Shown: positions 16,592-29,127 of the stretch, piece by piece
Position numbering within the stretch: the stretch's first letter is position 1
Layout: the number at the start of each line of letters is the position of its first letter
Source of the DNA: Pseudomonadota bacterium
GTDB taxonomy: Bacteria > Desulfobacterota > Binatia > Binatales > Binataceae
Length of the DNA: 64,000 nucleotides
Reading direction: 5' to 3'
NCBI GenBank assembly: GCA_021324855.1
Contig: JAJPIG010000018.1
Span: forward strand, 186,001-250,000
Notes under the pieces: model-generated
Database searches by the model: none
The model's input: the letters and a program-made list of their open reading frames with translations, nothing else
What the model was told of the DNA's origin: nothing
Program-made: the position numbers and the translations under genes

Positions 16592-16612
16592 TTGTAGACA
16601 AGTTGTCAACAA
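16592..16612. promoter_or_regulatory. Dyad operator at the repressor gene start
   Basis: An 11-bp palindrome GACAAGTTGTC (16597-16607) is flanked on each side, after one unpaired base, by TTGT and ACAA, giving an interrupted 21-bp dyad. It overlaps the TTG start candidate of the repressor and lies just before its GTG candidate. This position suits autoregulation by the repressor. Confidence 0.55.
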
Positions 16613-17265
16613 CTGTGGGAGAGGAGCGCGCGCGCCTGGCATTGATCGCCCGCCGGTTCGGCGGCGTAGGCGAGTTGGCGCGCGCGGTGGGCCTCTCGGA
16701 CAACGCCATCTACAAATGGCTGGCGGGACGCGGCCAGCCGAGCCTCGCGAGTGCCATAGCGATCGCGCGCGCGGCCGGCGTCTCGCTCGAATGGCTGGCT
16801 GGCGGTCGCGCGCGAACTGCCGAAGGATTGCGCGGCCAGCCTCCGTCCGATGCCGATCACATAAAGTTGCCGCGCGGCGAAGTGCGTCTCGGTTCCAAAC
16901 GCGGAGGACGCCTGCGCACGCCGCAAATCGTCGATGTGATTTCGTTCGCGCCGCGGTGGCTGCAAAGTCGGCTGACCGTCGATCCCGAGCGGCTGATACT
17001 GATGGAGGTGAGCGGCGACGCGATGGAGCCGACTCTCCGTCACGGTGACCTCGCGCTCGCGGACTTGCGTGAAAACCACGCCAGCGTAGACGGCCTTTAC
17101 GTGTTACGCCAGAATGGCGCCCTCGCGGTCAAACGCCTGCAACGCAGCGGCGTGGGCGCCAGGCTCATCGTTCGGAGCGACAACTCCGCCTACCCGCCGA
17201 TCGAGATCCCGGCCGCACAAATCAAGATCGTTGGACGGGTAATCTGGATGGGCAAGGCTCTCTAG
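16603..17265 (+). CDS. S24-type phage repressor with Ser-to-Ala change at the protease site
   Basis: The product (220 residues from TTG 16603, 216 from GTG 16615) has an N-terminal helix-turn-helix (VGELARAVGLSDNAIYKWLAGRGQPS) and a C-terminal LexA/S24 fold. The usual GDSMEPTL motif reads GDAMEPTL, so nucleophile Ser is Ala140, whereas the general-base Lys177 in LAVKRL is kept. Self-cleavage should therefore be lost while dimerisation could remain. No ribosome site lies before either start, and the operator overlaps the start, suggesting a leaderless message as for many phage repressors. It diverges from the phage genes and marks the right side of the prophage. Confidence 0.8.
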   Translation: MSTTVGEERARLALIARRFGGVGELARAVGLSDNAIYKWLAGRGQPSLASAIAIARAAGVSLEWLAGGRARTAEGLRGQPPSDADHIKLPRGEVRLGSKRGGRLRTPQIVDVISFAPRWLQSRLTVDPERLILMEVSGDAMEPTLRHGDLALADLRENHASVDGLYVLRQNGALAVKRLQRSGVGARLIVRSDNSAYPPIEIPAAQIKIVGRVIWMGKAL

Positions 17266-18012: not shown

Positions 18013-18315
18013 ATGAGTGCGCCGATTGAAAAGATCGCGCTCGCGCCGTCCTCGATCGTCTGCGCCTCGGCCGACCAGGTTTCATGCGACCTTGATGGCG
18101 AGGCCGCGATTCTCGACCTCAAGCAAGGAGTCTATTACGGACTCAATACGGTCGGCGCGGCGGTGTGGGCGCTGATCGCCGAGCCGCGCCGCGTCGATGA
18201 AATCGAACGCGCGGTGCTCGCCGAGTTCGATGTCACCCCCGAACAGTGCCATCGCGATCTGTACGAGCTGCTGAACGAACTTGCCGCCCGCGGCCTGCTC
18301 CGGATCGAGCCATGA
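18013..18315 (+). CDS. Lasso peptide B1 protein (PqqD-like leader-binding protein)
   Basis: The 100-residue product has the PqqD/RRE fold signature: a beta hairpin VSCDLDGEAAILDLKQGVYYGLNTVG, then AAVWALIAEPRRVDEIERAVLAEFDV and a C-terminal helix LYELLNELAARGLL. This is the lasso B1 form, which binds the precursor leader and delivers it to the B2 protease. It overlaps the B2 gene by 4 bp (ATGA), so the two are translationally coupled. It is not the PqqD of PQQ synthesis, which is separately encoded at 45073 in this window. Confidence 0.9.
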   Translation: MSAPIEKIALAPSSIVCASADQVSCDLDGEAAILDLKQGVYYGLNTVGAAVWALIAEPRRVDEIERAVLAEFDVTPEQCHRDLYELLNELAARGLLRIEP

Positions 18316-18764
18316 ACCTGATAGCCAGGATGGCGCGTCTGCCGGCGAGCGACCGCCGGCTCATCGTACGCGCCGCGTTCAGCCTGATCATCGCGCGAGC
18401 GGCGCTGATGCTCTTTGGATTGCCGCGGCTGCGGAGAGCGCTCGATCGTCGGGCGCGCCTGGAGGCAATCTCCGCGACCCGGCCTGAGCTCTCGAAAATC
18501 GCCTGGGCCATAGCAGCGGCGAATCGACCGTTCCGATACGAGTGTCTGCCGATTGCGCTCGCGGCCAGGTCGATGCTGCTGCATTACGGCTATCCGGCCG
18601 AATTGAAGCTCGGCGCGGGGCGCGACGCGGCGGGCGCTTTCATCGCGCATGCGTGGGTCGAGAGCGAAGGACGAATCGTGGTCGGCGGCTTCGAGCCGGG
18701 CGCCTATGTCGAACTGGCCCGCGATGGCGATTCCGCCGCGACCGCGCTGGCTGGTCGCTTTTAA
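18312..18764 (+). CDS. Lasso peptide B2 leader peptidase (transglutaminase-like)
   Basis: The ATG at 18312 overlaps the B1 stop and gives 150 residues. The B2 family blocks are clear: FRYECLPIALAARSMLLHYGYPAELKLG with catalytic Cys78, and FIAHAWVES with His113. B2 cleaves the leader from the precursor so the new N-terminus can be cyclised. Separate B1 and B2 genes are usual outside Proteobacteria, where most described loci encode a fused B. The N-terminal 45 residues are basic and amphipathic. Confidence 0.92.
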   Translation: MNLIARMARLPASDRRLIVRAAFSLIIARAALMLFGLPRLRRALDRRARLEAISATRPELSKIAWAIAAANRPFRYECLPIALAARSMLLHYGYPAELKLGAGRDAAGAFIAHAWVESEGRIVVGGFEPGAYVELARDGDSAATALAGRF

Positions 18765-18813
18765 GAAGATATATGGGGGATGATCGCGCTCTCGCGCCGC
18801 TGAAAACATAGCG

Positions 18814-19968
18814 ATGCCGTTTCTCGAAACCTGTCAGACCCTCGAAGAACACAAGGACTACCTTTCCGATCCCGTGCGTCTGGAGGCCTACAGCCGCGCG
18901 ATCGCGGAAGTGGTGAAACCGGGCGACGTGGTGCTCGATCTCGGCGCCGGCACCGCGATCTTCGCGATGCTGGCGTGCCGGGCCGGCGCGGCGCGCGTTT
19001 ATGCGGTGGACGATGGCGGGATTATCGAGATCGGCCGGGCCGCGGCCGCCGCCAACGGCTTTGCCGATCGGATCCATTTTATATGCGGCCATTCGACGCG
19101 CATCGATCTGCCCGAGCGCTGCGATGTGGCCGTAACCGAGCAGATGGGCGGTTTCGGCTACGAAGCCGGGGTGGTCGAGTTCTTCAACGATGCGCGCCGG
19201 CGGCTGCTCAAGCCCGGCGCGATCACGATCCCGCGGCGCATCGAAACCTTTCTCGCTCCTGTCGAAAGTCCCGAGGCCTGGGCGCCGATCGAATTCTGGG
19301 AGCAGCCGCGCGCCGGGTTCGATTTCAGCGCCGCGCGATCGTTCGTCGCGAACGACGAGGACTTCGGCTATTACGAGGCGCGCCATCTGATCGGCGAACC
19401 GCGCCGCGCCGTGATTTTCGATCTCGACCAAATCTGTCCCGCGGAAATCCCGGTCGAGGTCGAACTTGAGGTCGCGCGCGCCGGCACGTTGCACGGCCTC
19501 GGGGGATGGTTCGCGGCTCATCTTTCAGAAAACGTGGTGCTCAGTAATTCTCCGCTCGCGGCGCAGGCGATGGATCGCGCGACCGCGTTCTTTCCGCTCG
19601 AGCGCCCGGTCGCGGTCGCGGCCGGCGATCGCATTGCGGTCACGATGCGCCTGGCGCCTGAAGAAGAGATCGTGGAATGGCGAGTGCGTGTGATCGGCGC
19701 GGACGGCAGGCTCGCGGCCGACTTCGATCAGAGCAGTCTGCGCGGCGATCTGATCGCCCGCGAGGCCCGTGCGCGGCTCGCGCCGGATTACGCGCCGCGG
19801 CTCAGCCGGCACGCCCAGGCGCGCCGGCTCGCGCTCAACCTGTGCGATGGCGTCGCCACCGTGGAGCGCATCGAGCGCGAGGTGATGCGGCAGTTTCCGG
19901 GGCTGTTTGCCTCGCCCGCCGCCGCTCATCGCTTCGTCATGGAAACCATCCAGGAGCACGCCGAGTAG
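18814..19968 (+). CDS. PRMT-like methyltransferase with C-terminal leader-binding-like domain
   Basis: The 384-residue protein starts with a protein-arginine-methyltransferase layout: LSDPVRLEAYSRAI, SAM motif I VVLDLGAGTAIFAM (39-52), acidic motif VYAVDD, and a double-Glu loop VTEQMGGFGYEAG with Glu109 and Glu117, as PRMTs have. The beta-barrel half shows GLGGWFAAHLSENVVLSNSP, like the PRMT barrel. The last 60 residues (about 325-384, with ALNLCDGVATVERIEREVMRQFPG) resemble a PqqD/RRE winged helix. The fusion suggests that a leader peptide is recognised. The neighbouring precursor core has one Arg. Arginine methylation is inferred; ribosomal or other targets are possible. Confidence 0.75.
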   Translation: MPFLETCQTLEEHKDYLSDPVRLEAYSRAIAEVVKPGDVVLDLGAGTAIFAMLACRAGAARVYAVDDGGIIEIGRAAAAANGFADRIHFICGHSTRIDLPERCDVAVTEQMGGFGYEAGVVEFFNDARRRLLKPGAITIPRRIETFLAPVESPEAWAPIEFWEQPRAGFDFSAARSFVANDEDFGYYEARHLIGEPRRAVIFDLDQICPAEIPVEVELEVARAGTLHGLGGWFAAHLSENVVLSNSPLAAQAMDRATAFFPLERPVAVAAGDRIAVTMRLAPEEEIVEWRVRVIGADGRLAADFDQSSLRGDLIAREARARLAPDYAPRLSRHAQARRLALNLCDGVATVERIEREVMRQFPGLFASPAAAHRFVMETIQEHAE

Positions 19969-20004
19969 CGCGCCGGACATTTCGATGCTCCCCAGGGCCG
20001 GGCG

Positions 20005-21903
20005 ATGAGCGGCATCGCCGCCATCTTCAACCGCGACGGCGCGCCGGTTGAGCACGCCGGGATCGATCGGATGCTGACCGCGATGGCCTATCGCGGCCCC
20101 GACGGCTTCGGCGCGTGGCGCGAAGGCAACGTCGCGCTCGGTTTTGCCGCGCTCCACGACACGCCGGAATCGATCGACGAGCATCAGCCGCTCTCCGACG
20201 AAACCGGCGAGTTCCATCTGGTTTTCGACGGACGCATCGACAATCGCGCGGAGCTCGAAGCGTTACTGCGCGGGCAGGATTGCGCCCCCCGGGAGGCCGG
20301 CGATGCGGCGCTGATGCTCGCGGCCTATCGATGCTGGGGCGAAGAAGCGCCGCTGCGAATCCTGGGCGATTTCGCATTCGCGCTCTGGGACGCTCGCCGC
20401 AGACGGATCTTTTGCGCGCGCGATTGCATCGGACTCAAGCCGTTCTTCTACTATTGCGACGATCGCCGGTTCATCTGCGCCTCGGATATAGGCGCGCTGC
20501 TCGGCGATCCGCGCGCGCCGCATGAGCCGAACGAAGCGGTGGTTGCGGATTACCTGCTCGACCGGCATCGCAACCGCGTCGAGACGCTCTACAGGAAAAT
20601 CATGCGGCTCGAGCCGGCGCACTTTATGGTCATCGATGCGGCCGGCGTCACGCTGCGCCGATATTACGACCTTCCGTACAGCGCCGAGCTGCGTTACCGG
20701 AGCGATGACGAGTACGCGGAGCATTTCAAGGCGATCTTCAGGGAGGCGGTGCGGGCCCGGCTGCGCTCGACCGGAGCGGTGGGAGCCTATCTGAGCGGCG
20801 GGCTCGATTCGTCGTCGATCGTCTCGATGGCGCAGGCGATCTATCGCGAGGGCGGCGCGCCGCCGACTCGTTTCGAGACCTATTCGCTGATCCTGCCGCC
20901 GCCGGCCGACGAGCGCGAGTTCATCGACGCGGTGGTCGAGAGGTGGAATCTCAGCTCGAACCGGCCCAAACCATATGTTCCTGATTTGGCGTTCCTGACG
21001 GACCAGGTGCGGCGCTTCCGAGCGCCTCCCGACTATCCGAATGCGCTCCTCTTCTTTTCACTCAAGGATCTGGCTCGAGCACAGGGGGTTCGGGTGATGC
21101 TGGATGGCCAGGGCGGCGACGAATGGCTGGAGGGGGCGCGCGCTCATCTCGCCGATCTACTCTGTCGGCTCCGGCTGATTGCCGTTGCTAAACGCCTGCA
21201 GGTTCAGATCGCGCAGGCGCGCATTTACGGTTTCCCCTTTAGCCCATGGCGCGAGCTGATGGGCAACGGCATCCGGCCGCTGTTGCCGCCGCCGCTGGTT
21301 GCGATGCTCCAGCGCGTCAGCGGCAGGAAAGATCTACAGCCGCCGTGGATTGAGGAGAGTCTGTTGCGGCGCGCAGGTGGGCTCGAGCCGAGGAAGCGGT
21401 GGGATGTCGCAGAAAGCTTTGCCCGGAATGAGCTGCGCGAGACCTTCCTGGATGCTCACCTGACTACTATGCATGAATTCGAAGAGCGCTCCATGGCGTG
21501 GTTCGGCTTCGCACGCAGGATGCCGTTCGTTGATCGACGGATAGTCGAGTTCTGTTACGCGCTCCCGGAGGATCAGCGGCGCAGGTCGCGCACGAAGCTC
21601 GTATTGCGCAATGCGATGCGCGGGCTGCTGCCGGAACCCGTGCGGCAGCGCACCAGCAAGGCTGAGTTCTCAGCCGCCTTCTTCGAAGCGTTGCGCGCGC
21701 CCGGCCTGATCGAACTGTTCGAGAAAAGCCGGTTGGCGGAAAACGGCTGGGTTGGCTCGAAACAACTAATCGAGCACTATGCCGAGACTTTGCGATCCTA
21801 CGCGACCGATGGCATCGGGTACGGCGCTTCAGGCAACGCTCGATATCTGTGGCATCTATGGAACGCGGTTGGCCTTGAGTTATGGTTGAGAGCTGAGTTC
21901 TAA
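20005..21903 (+). CDS. Lasso peptide cyclase C (asparagine synthetase-like)
   Basis: The 632-residue product has an N-terminal class II amidotransferase domain (residues 1-190, with AMAYRGPDGFG and GDFAFALWD) and a C-terminal synthetase domain with the pyrophosphate loop LSGGLDSSSIVSMA. In lasso loci this enzyme adenylates the Asp/Glu side chain and closes the macrolactam. The N-terminal Cys2 nucleophile of glutamine-using synthetases is replaced: the protein begins MSGIAAIF. Loss of glutaminase activity fits a cyclase that needs no ammonia. The residue is seen; the functional consequence is family-based inference. Confidence 0.9.
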   Translation: MSGIAAIFNRDGAPVEHAGIDRMLTAMAYRGPDGFGAWREGNVALGFAALHDTPESIDEHQPLSDETGEFHLVFDGRIDNRAELEALLRGQDCAPREAGDAALMLAAYRCWGEEAPLRILGDFAFALWDARRRRIFCARDCIGLKPFFYYCDDRRFICASDIGALLGDPRAPHEPNEAVVADYLLDRHRNRVETLYRKIMRLEPAHFMVIDAAGVTLRRYYDLPYSAELRYRSDDEYAEHFKAIFREAVRARLRSTGAVGAYLSGGLDSSSIVSMAQAIYREGGAPPTRFETYSLILPPPADEREFIDAVVERWNLSSNRPKPYVPDLAFLTDQVRRFRAPPDYPNALLFFSLKDLARAQGVRVMLDGQGGDEWLEGARAHLADLLCRLRLIAVAKRLQVQIAQARIYGFPFSPWRELMGNGIRPLLPPPLVAMLQRVSGRKDLQPPWIEESLLRRAGGLEPRKRWDVAESFARNELRETFLDAHLTTMHEFEERSMAWFGFARRMPFVDRRIVEFCYALPEDQRRRSRTKLVLRNAMRGLLPEPVRQRTSKAEFSAAFFEALRAPGLIELFEKSRLAENGWVGSKQLIEHYAETLRSYATDGIGYGASGNARYLWHLWNAVGLELWLRAEF

Positions 21904-22128
21904 AGCGCGCCATTTTATGATTTTTTTGATTCAAGGCATTTTCTTTAGCTCTTGACTGGGCAGATTTTGTCAATTAGGCTGATCTTGTCTTGTCGGAGCT
22001 TGAATGCGCGAGATTTGGTTTGTGATGAGGCGAAGTTTGATACTTGTGATTACGCTTGCTTCTAATGTGCCACTGTGCGAAGCTCCGCTCATTGGCGCTA
22101 AAATCCAACCCTTTGGAGGGGGTTTAAG

Positions 22129-22890
22129 ATGCGACTCAAGAATAAACTGTTAGGACTGATGGTTGGGGGGACAATGATCGGTCTGCTCGCGATGTCCGGC
22201 ATCGGACGCGCGCAGTCGTCGGGACCCGTACCTGATACCTTCTTCTCTCCGCTGCCGCTCGAGGAGGGCAACTCTCTGAAAGGCGAGCCCGGCAATGTCG
22301 AGGTGATACTCGGCAATCCCTGCAACTCCGCGAAGGGGAAGGAGGGTTGCGCCTCGAAGAAAAGCAAGAACTCGGTGAGCACGTTCAACGATCAGATCCG
22401 CATTCGCGGGATCTTCACGAACTTCGATCCGATCATGGAAGGTACGACCTGCGACAGCGAGGAAGAGGCCGACGACAACTTCCTCAACAGCGGCGGCTCG
22501 ACCTTCTTTATAGGCGTAGGCAATGGCGGTGTCGGTGCGCTCTGCGCTCCGACCACCAAGACCGGCATCCTTTTCAGCTTGGTTTGGACTCCCTCAAAAA
22601 AGAGCAACGTGGCGGTTCCACTTAACGGCACTGCGACTTGGATGGATAGCAACAACAACAGCGGCACGGCCAATGTCAAAGGCACGATGACGTTGCTGTA
22701 CACGGGTCTGGGTGATTGCGGCACCTGGGCGATGGATCTCACCTTCTCGAACGTGAGCGCCGCGTCGCTGGGACCTGACAAGTCGACGGTTAACATCCAG
22801 ATGGATTACGGCAGCGAGCCACCCGATGGCGCCACCAGCTTTGGCTGCCTCGTCACGCCTTTGGATGTCGAGAAGAATTCGTTTGATTAA
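22129..22890 (+). CDS. Secreted protein of unknown function within the lasso locus
   Basis: After a strong GGAGGGGG site, the ATG at 22129 gives 253 residues with a signal peptide (cleavage near GRAQSS). The mature part is beta-rich with six Cys, probably paired (NPCNSAKGKEGCAS, TTCDSEE, GALCAP, GDCGTW, FGCLV), as expected for a periplasmic or extracellular protein. No family was recognised. It sits between the cyclase and precursor genes, but a 225-bp AT-richer gap before it suggests separate transcription. It could be an immunity, receptor or carrier function, or be unrelated. Confidence 0.65.
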   Translation: MRLKNKLLGLMVGGTMIGLLAMSGIGRAQSSGPVPDTFFSPLPLEEGNSLKGEPGNVEVILGNPCNSAKGKEGCASKKSKNSVSTFNDQIRIRGIFTNFDPIMEGTTCDSEEEADDNFLNSGGSTFFIGVGNGGVGALCAPTTKTGILFSLVWTPSKKSNVAVPLNGTATWMDSNNNSGTANVKGTMTLLYTGLGDCGTWAMDLTFSNVSAASLGPDKSTVNIQMDYGSEPPDGATSFGCLVTPLDVEKNSFD

Positions 22891-22910
22891 TCGACCCGAC
22901 AAGGTATAAT
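22883..22910 (+). promoter_or_regulatory. Promoter of the lasso precursor gene
   Basis: A consensus -10 TATAAT (22905-22910) lies 16 bp after TTGATT (22883-22888). Transcription would start near 22917, giving a leader of about 30 nt before the ATG at 22947. This excludes the upstream TTG at 22920 as a start. It is among the best sigma-70-type matches in the window and points to high, independent expression of the precursor. Confidence 0.7.
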
Positions 22911-22946
22911 TCCGCCGCCTTGATAAAGTTGGCGATGGAGGGCGAA

Positions 22947-23102
22947 ATGAAGGGAAGCATGGAGCAAAACGAAAAAGGCAAAACGGCGGAAAAGAAGCCG
23001 TATGCGAAGCCCGAACTGATCCGCTATGGCTCTGTTGCAGAGCTCACGAAGGGCGGCGGAAACTCGACCAACGATACACTCTCAAAGCGTAAAGGTGGTT
23101 GA
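22947..23102 (+). CDS. Lasso precursor peptide
   Basis: The ATG at 22947, with GGAGGG 4 nt upstream, gives 51 residues. The leader carries the lasso pattern KPYAKPELIRYGSVAELT (Tyr-x2-Pro-x-Leu, Gly, Leu-Thr). With Thr at the usual -2 position, the core is GGGNSTNDTLSKRKGG: Gly1 as N-terminus and Asp8 as ring-closing side chain, giving an eight-residue ring and an eight-residue basic tail. The tail holds Arg13 and has no bulky aromatic residue to act as a plug, which is unusual. Cleavage site and ring are predicted from family rules. Alternative starts 22920 and 22935 add only a few leader residues. Confidence 0.85.
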   Translation: MKGSMEQNEKGKTAEKKPYAKPELIRYGSVAELTKGGGNSTNDTLSKRKGG

Positions 23103-23136
23103 CCCTCAGTTCTGAGACATTGGGACCGTATTTACG

Positions 23137-23177
23137 ATACCCGGGCATTGCGATGACGCGGTGCCCGGGTATTTTTT
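23137..23177 (+). terminator. Rho-independent terminator after the lasso precursor
   Basis: An 11-bp perfect stem ATACCCGGGCA / TGCCCGGGTAT (23137-23147 and 23162-23172) with a 14-nt loop is followed by a T run (23172-23177). It lies 35 bp after the precursor stop and before the kinase gene, so the precursor can be made as a short separate transcript with limited read-through into the downstream genes. Confidence 0.9.
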
Positions 23178-23233
23178 GCCTTGGAGCAGGCTGAGGCCTC
23201 CAATCATCGCGCCGGCCGTCCACTCACCTCATC

Positions 23234-24235
23234 GTGCCGCTCTATCGCGTTTACGGAATCCTGATCGCGTCAGATGTTCCGCTGCCGGAGCTGACGCCGG
23301 TAAAACTTGCCGTATCCGAGCACGAGCCTCAAGTCTCCGTCGCCCTCCAAGCGCCGCTGCGTTTACCTCCCGCTCATCTCTCCTGGTCGATGCTTTACGA
23401 GGCGGGCGATGGTTCCGTTTGGACGCTCTGGGCGAAGGACGAGGATGGCTACTACCTGCGCTTTCCGGAAATCGCGGATTTCCGGGTCTCTCCTGGCGGA
23501 GACGAAATCGAATGCATCGGCCGCGCCGGCGCGACTTCACACGCCACGCTCCGTCATCTGCTGCTTGATCTGATTCTCCCCGCCGTCCTGAATCTCCGCG
23601 GCGGCGAGGCGCTCCATGCAACCGCAGTTGTCACGCCCCACGGCCTGTGTGCTTTCACCGGTCCGAGCGGCGCCGGAAAATCGACGCTGGCGGCAAGCTT
23701 CATGCTCGCCGGATACCCGGGATTCGGCGATGACTGTCTCGCGGTGAGCGAGGCGGACGGCCGAATCGTCGGCGCACCCGCTTATCCCGGCGTGCGGCTA
23801 TGGGACGATTCTTTGCGCTCGCTGACCAATGGACGCAAGCAAGCCGGAGCGGAACGGCTCGCCCGCGTCGCCCATTACACGACCAAACATCGCGCCTTCG
23901 AACGTGAATCGGCCGATCGCTTCGCTGCCGATCCGCGTCCGCTAGCCGCGATCTATCGGCTGATACGCGAACCTGCGGCCGGCGACGGCTGCGCGCCCGC
24001 GATTGAGCCGCTTTCGCCGCGCAACGCGATGATTGAGCTCCTCAATGCCTCGTATCGGCTCGATCTCGCCAATCGCGATCTGCTGGCGCGCGAGTTCAGA
24101 TGCCTTGAGCGCATCGCGCGGCTGGTTCCGATGCGCCGGCTGCGCATCCCCGAAGACTTCGCCGCATTGCCGGCGGTGCGAGAGGCCGTGCTGAGCGACC
24201 TCGCCGGCCTCGAACTTCCGCCGTCCAGACGATAG
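23234..24235 (+). CDS. HPr-kinase-like protein of the lasso locus
   Basis: The GTG at 23234 begins a 333-residue protein with a C-terminal P-loop kinase of HprK type: GGEALHATAVV, Walker A GPSGAGKST (143-151) and the acidic pair GFGDDCLAV. HprK-like proteins are recurrent in lasso loci; in one described group they phosphorylate the C-terminal Ser of the peptide. Here the predicted core ends in Gly-Gly and its Ser residues are internal (Ser5, Ser11), so the target is uncertain. It lies 57 bp beyond the terminator and 25 bp before the nucleotidyltransferase gene, forming an operon with it. Confidence 0.85.
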   Translation: MPLYRVYGILIASDVPLPELTPVKLAVSEHEPQVSVALQAPLRLPPAHLSWSMLYEAGDGSVWTLWAKDEDGYYLRFPEIADFRVSPGGDEIECIGRAGATSHATLRHLLLDLILPAVLNLRGGEALHATAVVTPHGLCAFTGPSGAGKSTLAASFMLAGYPGFGDDCLAVSEADGRIVGAPAYPGVRLWDDSLRSLTNGRKQAGAERLARVAHYTTKHRAFERESADRFAADPRPLAAIYRLIREPAAGDGCAPAIEPLSPRNAMIELLNASYRLDLANRDLLAREFRCLERIARLVPMRRLRIPEDFAALPAVREAVLSDLAGLELPPSRR

Positions 24236-24260
24236 CCGCGCTCACAGCGGCCCCATTACA

Positions 24261-25454
24261 ATGACGCGCGTGAAGGCTCTTTCCGCCGAAGCGCGCCTGA
24301 TTCTCGCCTGCTGCAGCGCCGGCTCCGGCGAGCCGGCGATCCCCGACCCATCGCTCGATTGGCGGCGCGTCATCGACCTCGCTCTTCTTGAGGGCGTGAT
24401 GCCGCTCGTCTATCGGCATCTTTCGGCGAACTATTTGGACGCGGCGCCGGAGTCCGCGATGCGCGAGTTGCGGTTCCATTTTCAGGGCAATGCGCTCAGA
24501 AATCGGATGCTGACGCGCGAGCTGGTCCGGCTCGTCGCGCTGCTCGAAAGCCGCGGCATCGCGCCGATCGCGTTGAAAGGTCCGACGCTCGCGCAAGCCG
24601 CGTTCGGCGACATCGCGATGCGCCAGTTTGCCGACCTCGATTTGCTGGTTCGCCGCGACGAGATGCCCGGCGCGATTGCGGCGCTCGCCGGCGACGGCTT
24701 CCGCCCGCAATCGTCGAGTCCCGAAATCATGCTCGATGAATTCTTCCAGGCCTCCGAGGATGCCTTCATCAAGCCGGAAGCGATGGCGGTGCTCGATGTG
24801 CACTGGGACCTGATGCCGCGCTACTTTCCATTCGCGCCCGACGGCGAACAGGTCCGCCGGCGCGCCGTCCGCATGCGGCTCGACGGCGGCGAGGTTACAA
24901 CTCTCGCGCCGCAGGACCATCTGATGCTCGCGTGCGTGCACGGGACGAAACATGGCTGGCCGTCGCTCGCCGCGATCACCGACATTGCGGCGTTGATGCA
25001 GCGCGAACCGGAGTGGGACTGGGCGGCGCTGTGCGAAGAGGCCGCGCAGCGGGGCAGCCTCACGATGCTGCTGCTGGGCGCAAGACTGGCGCATGACGCC
25101 CTCGCGGCGCCGCTTCCCGATTCGATGGTGGAGGAGACGCGCCGCGATCCGGTGGTCGAAGCGCTGGTTCCGCGCCTGCTCGATTCGCTGTTTTCGGGTC
25201 GCGAAGGAGCGCGCGTTCCGTTTTTCAACGGCTGGATGGTCCCGTTGCGGGCGATTGGATCGAATCGCGCGCGGCTTGCCTACATGCTCGATCGCGCGCT
25301 GGCTCCGACCTTCGATGATTGGAAGTTCGTCCGGCTGCCATCGGCGCTCTTCCCGCTCTATTACCTGGTCCGTCCGGCGCGGATCGCGATGCAGAAAATC
25401 GCGCCGCTGCGCTCGAGGTTGATCAGAGGGGCGAGCGCAGTGTCCCGTAAGTAA
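24261..25454 (+). CDS. Nucleotidyltransferase family protein (NTP_transf_5-like)
   Basis: The 397-residue protein has the nucleotidyltransferase pattern in GIAPIALKGPTLAQAAFGD followed by QFADLDLLVRRDE, whose Asp pair would bind metal, and QDHLMLACVHGTKHGW further on. This family (PF14907 type) accompanies HprK-like genes and asparagine-synthetase-like genes in many lasso loci, where its function is not established; transfer of a nucleotidyl group to the peptide or to a partner is one idea. It ends the locus; a weak 6-bp hairpin (25445-25462) overlaps its stop. Confidence 0.82.
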   Translation: MTRVKALSAEARLILACCSAGSGEPAIPDPSLDWRRVIDLALLEGVMPLVYRHLSANYLDAAPESAMRELRFHFQGNALRNRMLTRELVRLVALLESRGIAPIALKGPTLAQAAFGDIAMRQFADLDLLVRRDEMPGAIAALAGDGFRPQSSSPEIMLDEFFQASEDAFIKPEAMAVLDVHWDLMPRYFPFAPDGEQVRRRAVRMRLDGGEVTTLAPQDHLMLACVHGTKHGWPSLAAITDIAALMQREPEWDWAALCEEAAQRGSLTMLLLGARLAHDALAAPLPDSMVEETRRDPVVEALVPRLLDSLFSGREGARVPFFNGWMVPLRAIGSNRARLAYMLDRALAPTFDDWKFVRLPSALFPLYYLVRPARIAMQKIAPLRSRLIRGASAVSRK

Positions 25455-25545: not shown

Positions 25546-25830
25546 ATGACAAAAGGTGCCGTCGTTGGAGTTCGCGAGCTTCGCGCGCATCTCAGCGCAT
25601 ATCTGCGCCGCGTCGCGCGGGGAGAAAGCGTAACGGTAGGTGACCGCCAACGAAACCCCATCGCCCGCCTGGTTCCGGCACGACGCGGGAAAGAAGATGA
25701 ATGGCTCGAGCGGTTGGCGGCGCATGGCGCCGCGGTTCCTCCCGCCGCACCTTTTGTGTTCCCCAAATCGATTCGGCTCAAGGGTAAAGGGAAGCTCGCC
25801 GCTGACCTGGTCCTGGAAGATCGCCGTTGA
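25546..25830 (+). CDS. Phd/YefM-family antitoxin
   Basis: The 94-residue product shows the Phd/YefM DNA-binding domain: VGVRELRAHLSAYLRRVARGESVTVGDRQRNPIARLVP. The C-terminal 45 residues, rich in Pro, Lys and Arg, would wrap the toxin. Its stop overlaps the toxin's TTG start, the usual coupling for a type II pair. A dyad lies directly upstream, fitting autoregulation. Confidence 0.88.
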   Translation: MTKGAVVGVRELRAHLSAYLRRVARGESVTVGDRQRNPIARLVPARRGKEDEWLERLAAHGAAVPPAAPFVFPKSIRLKGKGKLAADLVLEDRR

Positions 25831-26261
25831 TCGCGTATCTGGACACCAGCGCGCTTATCAAGCTTTACGTCGCCGAGTCGGGACAGGAACTTGTTATCGA
25901 GCGGCTGCGTGCTGCAAACCAGGTTGCAACCGCGCTGATTACCTACGTCGAGATGTTCGGCGTGTTCACACGCCTCGAAAAAGAGCGCCGAATCAGCGCT
26001 GCCGAATGCCGCATGCTCAGCGAGCAGTTTGACGGGAATTGGTCGAGCTACTGGGTCGTGGACTTAACCCGCTCCGTCGTCCGGAGGGCGGCCCGTTTGG
26101 CGCACCGTTACGCCTTGCGCGGGTACGATGCCGTTCAGTTATCTTCCGCGCTCGAACTGCGCGGGAATGACGCCAAGGTGGAGTTCCTGTGTTTCGACCG
26201 CCGCCTCGCCGCCAGCGCCCAGCGCGAGAGACTTTTGATATCGGGCAATCCCGCACGATGA
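25827..26261 (+). CDS. PIN-domain toxin (VapC family)
   Basis: The 144-residue product begins at TTG 25827 (MIAYLDTSALIKLYVAE) and has the PIN acidic residues: Asp in LDTSALIK, Glu in YVEMFGVF, and Asp residues in RGYDAVQLSSAL and CFDRRLA. VapC toxins are Mg-dependent RNases acting on tRNA or rRNA. All four acidic positions appear present, so it should be active and kept in check by the antitoxin. The pair lies directly upstream of a converging tRNA-Leu gene, a common landing place for such modules. Confidence 0.88.
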   Translation: MIAYLDTSALIKLYVAESGQELVIERLRAANQVATALITYVEMFGVFTRLEKERRISAAECRMLSEQFDGNWSSYWVVDLTRSVVRRAARLAHRYALRGYDAVQLSSALELRGNDAKVEFLCFDRRLAASAQRERLLISGNPAR

Positions 26262-26345: not shown

Positions 26346-26498
26346 GGAAATCCTGAGCTTATAAACAACGAGTGAGCATCATAGCAAAGGCGCGGCGGCG
26401 ATTCAGCGCGCTCGCGCGCCGCGGCCGGCCGATCGGAGAACTTGCAGACGGGACGGCTTTGTCCTATGGCTCATCTAAATTCCGAGGAGCATTCCACA

Positions 26499-27806
26499 AT
26501 GAAGCGATCGCGGGTCGCGTTAGTGGCCGTGGTTTTGATCGCGGGTCTCTCTGCGCCGATGGCGTGCGCCTTCGCCGCAGCAAACAACGAAACGGCGATT
26601 CCGCCCGGCACCGTCATCTCCAGCAGCAACTGGCAGCAGTACCGGCAGTTCATGACCGACGGGATGCAGGCGCTCTTCGCCGGTACTTACACCTGGAAGC
26701 TACCACCCCAGTTCCAGATTGTCGTCGCTCCGACCCAGCATTACGAGCCCACGCCGACCTATATTGCGCAAACCGAGAAATATGCCAGCCAGGTCAAAAT
26801 CGTCACTCTGCCCGATGGCCGCCATACGATCACCGGTTACGTGGGCGGGTCGCCCTTCCCAAATCCGCAGGAGCCGATGAAGGGTTGGAAAATCCTGGTC
26901 GATGATTGGTACGCCTATGCGCCATACGTGTTATGTGCGGATACCAACACGCTGGCATTCGAAGATCGCTTCGGCAACATCAGCCATCTGACGCAGTTCT
27001 TCGTGCAGCATCTGTACGATCATATCGGCGACGCCGGGATGCCGGTGACGGACAATAGCTCGCCCGGGGTTTATTACACCGAGATTATTTCGGTCGAGGA
27101 ACCCGAGCAGGCTCGTTACACTGCGGTCCTGACGCTGTACTATGCCGACCTCACCAAGTCGGAAGATACCTACATCTTCGTGCCGGCGCTGCGCCGCTCG
27201 CTCAGGCTTTCGTCAGCGGCCCGATGCAGCCCGGCGATCGGCTCCGACTACGCCAATGACGACACCCGTCATGGCGCATTTAACGGCAATCCTACGCGCT
27301 TCGATGCGACGTTTCTCGGCGAGCGCAAGGTCCTCGAGATGCCGCAGCCGGACCCTGATTTGTTCCCGAAGGAAGAGTACTACTTCAAGCCGCTGTACTT
27401 TCCCAAGCCGGAAGTCGGCAAATGGGAGGTGCGCGATTCCAACGTGATCGACGTGCGACGCGTCCCATCGCAACGCGCGGGCTATTGCTACGGCAAGCGC
27501 ATCCTCTATTGCGACAAGGAAATCTATCAATCGGTCTGGGCCGACCTCTACGATGAAAATATGAAGCTCTGGAAGATCGACTACGATCCCCAGGGCCTGA
27601 TCGATGTGCCCGGAGAGGGACGCCGGTGGACCAACGACGGCTGGGGCATGATGTTCGACGTGCAGAACATGCATCTGACCTGGGTGGTGCTGTCAGGACA
27701 GCATCATGCGGTTCGGGCCAACGCTGACTGCAAAAACCTGGGCGGACTCGACTACACCGATGATCGCTATTCGAGCGTGCGAGGCCTTGCCGAGATCATG
27801 AGGTAG
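26499..27806 (+). CDS. DUF1329 outer-membrane lipid-transport-like protein
   Basis: Starting at the ATG at 26499 (GAGGAG upstream), the 435-residue product has a signal peptide ending near CAFAAANN and the DUF1329 pattern: GTVISSSNWQQYRQFMTDGMQALFAGTY, GGSPFPNP followed by QEPMKGWKIL, RRSLRLSSAARC and WADLYDENMKLWKI. DUF1329 proteins have a LolA/LolB-like fold and usually accompany RND exporters or hydrophobic-substrate pathways. No exporter gene lies next to it here. It converges with a paralogue at 27811, with only four bases between the stops. Confidence 0.85.
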   Translation: MKRSRVALVAVVLIAGLSAPMACAFAAANNETAIPPGTVISSSNWQQYRQFMTDGMQALFAGTYTWKLPPQFQIVVAPTQHYEPTPTYIAQTEKYASQVKIVTLPDGRHTITGYVGGSPFPNPQEPMKGWKILVDDWYAYAPYVLCADTNTLAFEDRFGNISHLTQFFVQHLYDHIGDAGMPVTDNSSPGVYYTEIISVEEPEQARYTAVLTLYYADLTKSEDTYIFVPALRRSLRLSSAARCSPAIGSDYANDDTRHGAFNGNPTRFDATFLGERKVLEMPQPDPDLFPKEEYYFKPLYFPKPEVGKWEVRDSNVIDVRRVPSQRAGYCYGKRILYCDKEIYQSVWADLYDENMKLWKIDYDPQGLIDVPGEGRRWTNDGWGMMFDVQNMHLTWVVLSGQHHAVRANADCKNLGGLDYTDDRYSSVRGLAEIMR

Positions 27807-27810
27807 GGCG

Positions 27811-29127
27811 CTATCGCATAATCTCGTTCAGGCCGGAGAGTCCGCTGTAGCGCTTCACGTCATCGTACTGCTTCGGCACCTGTTCATTCAGTGCGAAATC
27901 GGCCCCGGCGGGAGTGATCGTCGAAAGGAAGCTCATGTGGCCGCTCTTGAGGTTCCAGAGTTGCGTCACCCGCGATGCCGAACTGTCCTGGATGCCCGCG
28001 CCGGGCACCTCGCGCGCCCGCGTGCCGACACGAAACACCTTCCACAGTCGCATCTGCGGGTCGTAAAGATCCTCCCATAGCGGGACCTGGCTGTTGGCGT
28101 CGGCATACATGACTCGCCTGCCGTAACAGTAACCGCCGGCATAAGCCGGCAGCGGGCGGATGTCGATCACGTTGGTGTCGCGCAACTCCCACGTAGCCCA
28201 GTTCGGCCGCGGCCACAGCACGGGAAAATAGTAGTTCTGCTGCGAGAGATTGCCGGCCTGAACGCCGTAGTTGATCAGCGCGAGCATCGGCTTGCGGGCG
28301 AGGAACTGCGCCTGAAATTTCCAGATATCGCCGCTGAAGCCGTTGCGCCAGTCGTCCTCCATGAAGTCGCTGCCGCTGCTCTCGGAGCATCGCGCACCCG
28401 CATTGATCCGGATCGCGCGGCGCAGCTTGGGCGTGAAGAGATAATCGTCCTGCGGCCGCGAGTCGTAATACATCGTCAATCCCGAGGTATACTTCTGATC
28501 CTCGGGCGTCTCGACCATCCAGAACTCCGTGAAGGTCGGCCCCGCGGCATCATCGTTTTCCGCGGTGGATGTCGTCCCGGCGTCGGCGAGATGCTTCAAC
28601 TGGCGATAGACGGCGAACTCAGTGATGCAGGAAAGGTTTGAAAAGCGATCTTCACGGCATAGCGTCTCGTAGCTGGAGCTGCCGGTCGAGACGAGATGCG
28701 GAAAATAGCGGTACCAGAGATTCGCGAGAATCTTCCATCCCTTGTGCGGCTCTTCAGGGTTCGGGAACGGCATCCCCGCCACATAATCGCGGATCATCAG
28801 GCCGCCATCCGGCGTCGTGACGAGCTTGACTTGCGAAGCGTAGCGTTCGGTCGCCTGGCGATATGAAAGCGGCAGCGGATGATTGACGGTCGGACCGACC
28901 ACCAGCTCAACATCCGCCGGCAGCTTCCAATAGTACTTGCCTTCGAACAGCGCCTGCATCCCGTCCGGCATGTACGCCGCATATTGATGCCAGTTCTGCA
29001 TCGTGATCTTCGTCCCCGGCGCGATTTCGGCGGTGGCCGGCGCGCCTCCGCCCGCTTGCGCAATGCGGCATGCCCCAAGCATCAGGAACGTCATACTCAA
29101 ACCAATCAGCAGACCCATCCGCTTCAT
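27811..29127 (-). CDS. DUF1329 protein, paralogue of the converging gene
   Basis: The 438-residue product has a signal peptide (MKRMGLLIGLSMTFLMLGACR; the Cys may be lipidated) and the same blocks as its neighbour: ITMQNWHQYAAYMPDGMQALFEGKYYWKLP, MPFPNPEEPHKGWKIL, RRAIRINAGARC and WEDLYDPQMRLWKV. Both proteins end in (L/A)xEIMR. The two genes are head-to-tail inverted paralogues, so the pair arose by duplication with inversion or by separate arrival. Lipid or hydrophobic substrate handling in the periplasm is inferred from the fold. Confidence 0.85.
   Translation of the reverse strand: MKRMGLLIGLSMTFLMLGACRIAQAGGGAPATAEIAPGTKITMQNWHQYAAYMPDGMQALFEGKYYWKLPADVELVVGPTVNHPLPLSYRQATERYASQVKLVTTPDGGLMIRDYVAGMPFPNPEEPHKGWKILANLWYRYFPHLVSTGSSSYETLCREDRFSNLSCITEFAVYRQLKHLADAGTTSTAENDDAAGPTFTEFWMVETPEDQKYTSGLTMYYDSRPQDDYLFTPKLRRAIRINAGARCSESSGSDFMEDDWRNGFSGDIWKFQAQFLARKPMLALINYGVQAGNLSQQNYYFPVLWPRPNWATWELRDTNVIDIRPLPAYAGGYCYGRRVMYADANSQVPLWEDLYDPQMRLWKVFRVGTRAREVPGAGIQDSSASRVTQLWNLKSGHMSFLSTITPAGADFALNEQVPKQYDDVKRYSGLSGLNEIMR

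Follow-up and report, generated by a model that had tools for sequence, protein, structure and literature searches.

Gene content of the locus

The locus described here is a lasso peptide gene cluster at positions 18013-25454 of a 64,000-nucleotide stretch of DNA (hereafter, the window) from a Pseudomonadota bacterium that GTDB places in the Binataceae (assembly GCA_021324855.1, contig JAJPIG010000018.1, positions 186,001 to 250,000 of the forward strand). It encodes, all on the + strand, the leader-binding protein B1, the leader peptidase B2, a methyltransferase, the cyclase C, the precursor A, an HprK-like kinase and a PF14907 nucleotidyltransferase. A preliminary description of the same DNA had listed B1, B2, the cyclase, a 51-residue precursor and the last two genes on one strand, and our analysis confirmed each of these genes and its coordinates.

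B1 (18013..18315) is a discrete PqqD-type leader-binding protein, that is, a RiPP (ribosomally synthesized and post-translationally modified peptide) recognition element (RRE), and matches PqqD PF05402 with 66.1 bits (cut-off 23.4). Its stop codon overlaps the start of B2 (18312..18764) as ATGA. B2 is a transglutaminase-like leader peptidase that scores over the cut-offs of both NF033537 (77.5 bits, cut-off 33) and PF13471 (71.5 bits, cut-off 26), and is the single PF13471 match in its own genome; the Cys and the His are kept in all 55 rows of the B2 alignment, and the window protein has no clear third acidic residue. The methyltransferase (18814..19968) matches PRMT_C PF22528 (PRMT, protein arginine methyltransferase; 38.9 bits, cut-off 27). 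It is followed by the asparagine-synthetase-type lasso cyclase C (20005..21903), which has an SGGLDSS motif and matches Asn_synthase PF00733 with 147 bits (cut-off 21).

The precursor gene A (22947..23102, 51 amino acids) has GGAGGG upstream of its ATG, and its leader, YAKPELIRYGSVAELTK, is recognized by the lasso leader model NF033521 (27 bits, cut-off 19). The Thr at position -2 sets the register of the predicted core, GGGNSTNDTLSKRKGG (23052..23099), in which Gly1 and Asp8 would be linked to form a ring of eight residues that contains Ser5 and Thr6, leaving the tail TLSKRKGG with the only arginine of the core, R13. The leader match, Thr(-2) and Asp8, which we looked for as signs of a lasso precursor, are thus all present. 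The HprK-like precursor kinase (23234..24235) gives weak profile matches (TIGR04352, 26.9 bits, cut-off 200), but its residues H128, GPSGAGKS at 143-150 (G143, G146, G148, K149, S150), D166 and D167 have offsets identical to those of BsfK (H148-G163-G166-G168-K169-S170-D186-D187). The last gene (24261..25454) encodes a nucleotidyltransferase of the NTP_transf_5 family (PF14907, 196 bits, cut-off 31.2), which we take to be the counterpart of PsmN and BsfN in known clusters.

Judged by its sequence, this region is a genuine lasso peptide gene set. The combination is far beyond chance, since the same set recurs in relatives, and the assignment to a lasso locus in the preliminary description is upheld, with both B2 (NF033537) and the leader (NF033521) over their cut-offs.

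A PRMT-fold methyltransferase linked to lasso loci

The AlphaFold model of the window methyltransferase, built from a 17-row alignment, has a pLDDT of 90, and the best 50 matches to it in the PDB are all PRMTs. A profile search likewise found solved PRMTs (PRMT6, E 1.5e-46). Together with the PF22528 match, the model and the PDB matches show an S-adenosylmethionine (SAM)-binding domain followed by the PRMT beta-barrel. The enzyme shares this fold and the SAM site with the type I PRMTs (PRMT6, PRMT2, PRMT1, CARM1), but differs from them in an additional three-helix C-terminal extension (approximately residues 322-384), as well as in the acceptor site described below. The SAM-binding motif LDLGxGTG and the acid after the next strand show few changes across its clade.

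Relatives of the methyltransferase were collected from a phylum search (297 genomes, of which 8, among them the window's own, matched at E <= 1e-10), from a genome-contig scan (41 loci) and from a second phylum group (347 genomes, of which 23 matched at E <= 1e-40); a search of viral contigs found none. Phylogenetic analysis of 42 rows puts the window enzyme in an 18-row clade with support 100/100, which we call class I and which was extended, by motif, with two later finds to 20 methyltransferases in 19 loci (loci carry L numbers below). Locus class sets were assigned by hand, and counts across related methyltransferases and loci are not independent by descent. Places with a B2 match numbered 66, of which 60 were taken as regions of their own, one lies inside L138, one inside L241, and four were left out.

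In each of the 19 class I loci the methyltransferase is accompanied by one or more of B1, B2, C, the kinase and the nucleotidyltransferase: the kinase is present in 18, B1 in 14, the cyclase in 14 and the nucleotidyltransferase in 12. In the loci that lack a cyclase (L017, L021, L027, L028, L236) the methyltransferase is at or near a contig end. One of these loci, L017, has a methyltransferase 79% identical to that of the window and a contig that ends within the cluster; that of L010 is 46% identical, and both L010 and L011 come from genomes of the window's family. Class I members are found in metagenome-assembled genomes (MAGs) labelled Deltaproteobacteria, Acidobacteria, Nitrospira, Rokuibacteriota, Gammaproteobacteria, Thermoleophilaceae and others. 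The co-occurrence check proposed in the preliminary description thus came out in favour of a pathway role, as the methyltransferase is repeatedly found next to lasso-type genes, in MAGs from many phyla.

Loss of the arginine clamp

In PRMTs, the two glutamates of the double-E loop grip the guanidinium group of the substrate arginine. Profile alignment to solved PRMT6 places Asp at the first of these glutamates, Ala at the second and Arg at the Trp of the THW motif. Among the 20 class I enzymes the first position is Asp in 18 and Glu in two (the window and L017), the second is Ala in all 20, and the position of the THW Trp is Arg in 18. In the window enzyme, the double-E thus reads Glu then Ala, and the THW motif is absent, its loop being QAMDR.

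We compared these motifs in 67 PRMT-like methyltransferases, split into those with a lasso-type gene within 8 kb (47) and those with none (20). Acids stand at both double-E positions in 20 of the 20 enzymes without such a neighbour (Glu at both in 16), several of which are on short contigs (e.g. L013, L041) and three of which (L032, L033, L041) come from genomes with lasso-like cyclases elsewhere, and the loop Trp is present in 19; of the 47 beside lasso-type genes, 12 have acids at both positions (two Glu in 10) and 14 have the loop Trp. A C-terminal extension of at least 55 residues is found in 38 of the 47 and in 4 of the 20. The 67-row count omits second copies (L143, L241), five non-PRMT methyltransferases, an odd open reading frame (ORF) of L185, and rows truncated at a contig end or with too many gaps (L017, the second of L052, L054, L137, L250); L024, L025 and L035 (same contigs as L011, L010 and L012) and L016, whose methyltransferase is inside a 1025-amino acid ORF, were left out before alignment.

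Besides class I, a second lasso-linked class with an SDxRGxLP-like motif (class II) comprises the enzymes of L012, L040, L045, L046, L055, L164 and L240 and the second methyltransferases of L028 and L042. Both acids are kept by the lasso-linked enzymes of L037, L157, L161 and L162, and also of L044. In the first four, both acids are the double-E glutamates, and the cores end in NRASR, NRVSR, SRASR and RNASR, respectively; retention of the glutamates together with these core ends fits arginine methylation, and this group may well be the better candidate for an Arg-methylated lasso peptide.

Core peptides of the clade

A precursor was identified in 17 class I loci, giving 19 cores. All 19 have Asp or Glu at position 7-9 and a ring with at least one Ser or Thr; a final Ser is found in none of them, the window core included. 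No core has an acidic residue in the tail, and a second ring acid is found in a single one (Glu in L029; none in the window). Arginine is absent from 8 of the 19, among them the core of L010, and 5 (L018, L019, L023, L029, L038) have neither Arg nor Lys.

Of these cores 15, from 13 of the 17 loci, finish in Cys-Leu. The same end is found in none of 13 loci with other PRMT-like methyltransferases (L012, L015, L037, L040, L044, L045, L046, L055, L157, L161, L162, L164, L240) and in none of 14 lasso loci without a PRMT-like methyltransferase (L080, L085, L087, L138, L140, L148, L151, L170, L171, L173, L181, L182, L184, L193), absence of the enzyme being weakly established at L087 and L184 because their contigs are short. 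Fisher's exact test gives p of about 2e-5 for each comparison, assuming an independence that the tree does not grant. L046 was kept in the first set in spite of an Asp at core position 10, and L137 and L052 (methyltransferase cut) and L146 (unclear core register) were omitted from it; uncounted precursors from loci without the methyltransferase (three in L156, and those of L206, L257, L264 and L276) also lack Cys-Leu. That the methyltransferase is a member of the pathway, as the preliminary description had it, is therefore backed also by a C-terminal core motif common to most of the clade.

Two of the 13 Cys-Leu loci, L235 and L250, came from a later methyltransferase search that was blind to the cores; the L250 enzyme is a fragment (its first 104 residues), 96% identical to the class I methyltransferase of L236 in the same genome. 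We also searched the same 347 genomes starting from the precursor; of the 15 rows behind the search model, 12 have a Cys-Leu end. This gave 27 places in 21 genomes, five of them without a convincing precursor; of the 22 precursors read, three end in Cys-Leu, all beside a class I methyltransferase and all in loci already known (L026, L235, L250).

Separately, L031:9331-9987 contains three tandem lasso precursors with near-identical rings and differing tails, all ending in Cys-Leu.

Proposed pathway and methyl acceptor

We propose that the locus is a split-B lasso operon of the kind that carries a kinase and a nucleotidyltransferase, here joined by a PRMT-fold methyltransferase, which would methylate the C-terminal region of the precursor, most probably at the C-terminal carboxylate, alongside phosphorylation of the ring by a BsfK-like kinase. 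We put the probability of this reading as a whole at about 0.5. B1 would bind the YxxPxL...YG..LT leader; the kinase would phosphorylate a ring Ser or Thr (here Ser5 or Thr6), and the nucleotidyltransferase may extend that phosphate; B2 would cleave after the residue that follows the Thr, and the cyclase would join Gly1 to Asp8. The methyltransferase would act on the precursor peptide at a site other than arginine. The order of these steps, the phosphorylation site and the methyl acceptor are predictions.

The phosphorylation site is suggested by BsfK, which phosphorylates core Ser3 with strong help from B1 and whose cluster also contains a nucleotidyltransferase (PMC10368454). Lasso kinases described earlier target a C-terminal Ser, and PsmN of pseudomycoidin has been linked to hexoses on the phosphorylated Ser (PMC9266682). 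With a Ser or Thr inside the ring of every class I core and none ending in Ser, ring phosphorylation in the manner of BsfK is the better guess.

The acceptor of the methyl group is suggested by the cores and the active sites of class I. The cores of relatives without Arg or Lys, together with the replacement of the clamp acids and of the Trp by Ala and Arg, make an arginine methyltransferase unlikely. The exchange of a guanidinium clamp for Asp/Ala and Arg would suit an anionic acceptor, and the last two core residues, conserved in most of the class, direct attention to the C-terminus. After ring closure the C-terminal carboxylate is the sole free carboxylate in 18 of the 19 class I cores, and it is also present in the four loci without Cys-Leu; it is therefore our first choice.

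Several observations weigh against this proposal. The cores of four class I loci (the window, L010, L011 and L020) have Lys and/or Arg in the tail and no Cys-Leu, those of L011 and L020 also holding Arg, and an Arg or Lys target in the window's own branch, given R13, is possible, if unlikely. Nothing in the sequences is specific to a carboxylate. On the methyltransferase tree Cys-Leu requires three changes, so the p values overstate the association, which rests on few events, and the link could be a trait of the cluster lineage in its entirety (kinase, cyclase) instead of the methyltransferase. L237, whose class I-like enzyme came from the later search, has no readable precursor. B2 lies inside the locus in 9 of the 19 class I loci; it is located elsewhere in the genomes of L010, L011, L026 and L235, and a search of the L030 genome gave no match. 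For B1 the best NCBIfam model is lasso_PqqD NF033536, at 63.4 bits below its cut-off of 80. The preliminary description had expected B2 and the cyclase to fall in the lasso families: B2 does so over the cut-off, whereas the cyclase has the lasso model NF033535 as its best NCBIfam match but, at 450 bits, stays below the curated cut-off of 525. Lastly, we do not claim an RRE at the C-terminus of the methyltransferase, because the match to PqqD is weak (hhalign probability 53% over 23 columns, P 1.3e-4; controls with the kinase, nucleotidyltransferase and cyclase gave P of 0.24-0.48) and a Pfam scan of nine C-terminal pieces gave no PqqD match.

Other acceptors

The preliminary description had predicted an arginine-modified lasso peptide, which in the window would mean methylation of R13. 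Such an activity would be in keeping with the PRMT fold, with the one Arg of the window core and those of L011 and L020, and with the existence of the L037/L157/L161/L162 group, which combines both glutamates with Arg-containing core ends. In the window's own clade, however, the double-E and THW are lost and 8 of the 19 cores offer no arginine, including that of the family member L010, and we consider the prediction unlikely here. As a general function of the clade, PRMT-type arginine methylation is rejected on the clamp loss and the Arg-free cores. Covariation of the double-E with core arginine was also considered and set aside, since the starred tree branches offer only two independent pairs.

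Similarly improbable is methylation of side chains near the C-terminus, which would fall on the Cys thiol where a core ends in Cys-Leu and on Lys or Arg in the window's branch. It would account for the Cys at position -2 in 13 of the 17 loci and for the Lys/Arg in the tails of the other four; yet the window, L010, L011 and L020 cores have no Cys, so that the acceptor chemistry would have to change within one clade.

Two further possibilities seem to us more remote. The methyltransferase might act on the phosphate that the kinase installs on a ring Ser or Thr, giving a phosphate methyl ester; the near-constant kinase (18 of 19 loci), the ring Ser/Thr of all cores and the exchange of the acidic clamp for Ala and Arg would agree with this. 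However, it offers no explanation for Cys-Leu, which lies at the opposite end of the core, the kinase is frequent in loci that lack the methyltransferase too, and no PRMT-fold enzyme is known to methylate phosphate. Alternatively, the protein could be a PRMT devoid of catalytic activity, acting as a scaffold or as an activator of another enzyme, like PRMT prozymes: its catalytic acids are lost, and the trypanosome PRMT1 enzyme-prozyme structure 6dnz_A is among its matches (rank 26, TM-score 0.83 by target length), but the SAM-binding motif is maintained across the clade. Aspartimide chemistry of the protein isoaspartyl methyltransferase (PIMT) type is ruled out, as 18 of the 19 cores, including that of the window, have no acid besides the ring acceptor.

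Extending the proposal of C-terminal methylation beyond this locus, we suggest, more tentatively, that the PRMT fold was recruited into lasso pathways in several lineages and now methylates an anionic acceptor (a carboxylate or the kinase-installed phosphate), yielding ring-phosphorylated, tail-methylated peptides that mostly end in Cys-Leu. If true, this would be a new family of tailoring enzymes for lasso peptides, present in MAGs from many phyla, and would amount to a natural experiment, a PRMT active site having been rebuilt for a different substrate. It would also caution that PRMT family matches alone are a poor predictor of arginine methylation.

Relation to known systems

Lasso clusters with a kinase and a nucleotidyltransferase are already known. 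The bsf cluster of Bradymonas sediminis resembles the window in its split B1/B2, cyclase, nucleotidyltransferase, YxxPxL leader and kinase spacing, but has an ABC (ATP-binding cassette) transporter and Ile instead of Thr at -2, and none of its seven genes is named a methyltransferase in the excerpts of PMC10368454. The paeninodin and pseudomycoidin clusters also contain a tailoring kinase, and that of pseudomycoidin a nucleotidyltransferase as well; their kinase target, however, is the C-terminal Ser that all 19 class I cores lack, and the available portion of PMC9266682 mentions no PRMT-like methyltransferase in them.

Methyltransferases of other kinds are known from lasso clusters. StspM, from lassomycin-like clusters, methylates the C-terminal carboxyl group; it was modelled on mitomycin-7-O-methyltransferase, and this description sets it apart from the PRMT-fold window enzyme (PMC9266682). 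The lihuanodin and cellulonodin-2 clusters likewise encode a SAM methyltransferase, but of the PIMT type, a different enzyme family, which acts on a conserved ring Asp to give an aspartimide (PMC9266682, PMC13352647). Soil metagenomic lasso clusters share the split B1/B2 with the window and had phospho- or methyltransferase genes amplified where present, the type of methyltransferase being unnamed in the text portion of PMC12670498.

From the type I PRMTs the window enzyme departs at the acceptor site by Ala in place of the second double-E Glu and by the absence of THW. In the literature searched, which covered few subscription papers and preprints, we found no description of a PRMT-like lasso enzyme, no RiPP precursor paired with a protein arginine methyltransferase and no lasso peptide from Binatota; arginine methyltransferase together with lasso peptide returned saskemycin alone, with the lasso mention in its reference list.

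Export and neighbouring genes

The preliminary description had noted the lack of a visible ABC exporter, and in agreement with this no transporter was recognized in the five flanking window ORFs that we scanned. Elsewhere in the genome, beyond the window, four ABC_membrane genes score over the cut-off, and one of these is on the window's contig. Among other class I loci, L011 has a major facilitator superfamily gene alongside and L235 has ABC-like ORFs (by eye). Parts of the pathway can be dispersed, as seen in genomes G121 and G221, where the sole B2, with its adjacent B1, is on a different contig from the precursor, cyclase, methyltransferase and kinase genes. Lone B1-B2 pairs were also seen at L082, L083 and L084, with no other lasso-type match within approximately 10 kb.

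Between the cyclase and the precursor lies a gene (22129..22890, +) omitted from the preliminary description, which encodes a hypothetical protein of 253 amino acids, secreted-looking by eye. It has no Pfam or NCBIfam match, and a comparison with all ORFs of the window and of 51 related loci gave the protein itself as the sole match; its membership of the pathway is doubtful.

Some loci carry additional candidate tailoring genes. A second, non-PRMT SAM methyltransferase was seen near the cluster in L026, L028, L030, L042, L052 and L235, and that of L235 adjoins two ORFs that resemble an ABC permease and ATPase by eye. PhyH-like dioxygenase genes flank the lasso genes at L010 (4672-5640 and 9164-10150), with similar ORFs at L020, and peptide hydroxylation is possible there. 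L090:11421-12760 and L089:12234-13128 contain six and five copies, respectively, of very short peptides, in which a YxKPEL leader of lasso-like appearance precedes a tail of approximately 9-11 residues; both arrays are beside B1, B2 and kinase matches (L090 also beside a nucleotidyltransferase), with no cyclase match, and are perhaps another kinase-RiPP system.

Just upstream of the cluster in the window, 16603-17265 encodes a repressor with a helix-turn-helix and an S24 peptidase domain (LexA/CI-like). Directly downstream of the lasso genes, 25546-26261 holds a Phd/YefM-like antitoxin (below the Pfam cut-off) and a PIN-domain toxin. Further on are two convergent genes (26442-27806 and 27811-29127) encoding proteins that resemble each other by eye; that of the first gene is a member of DUF1329.

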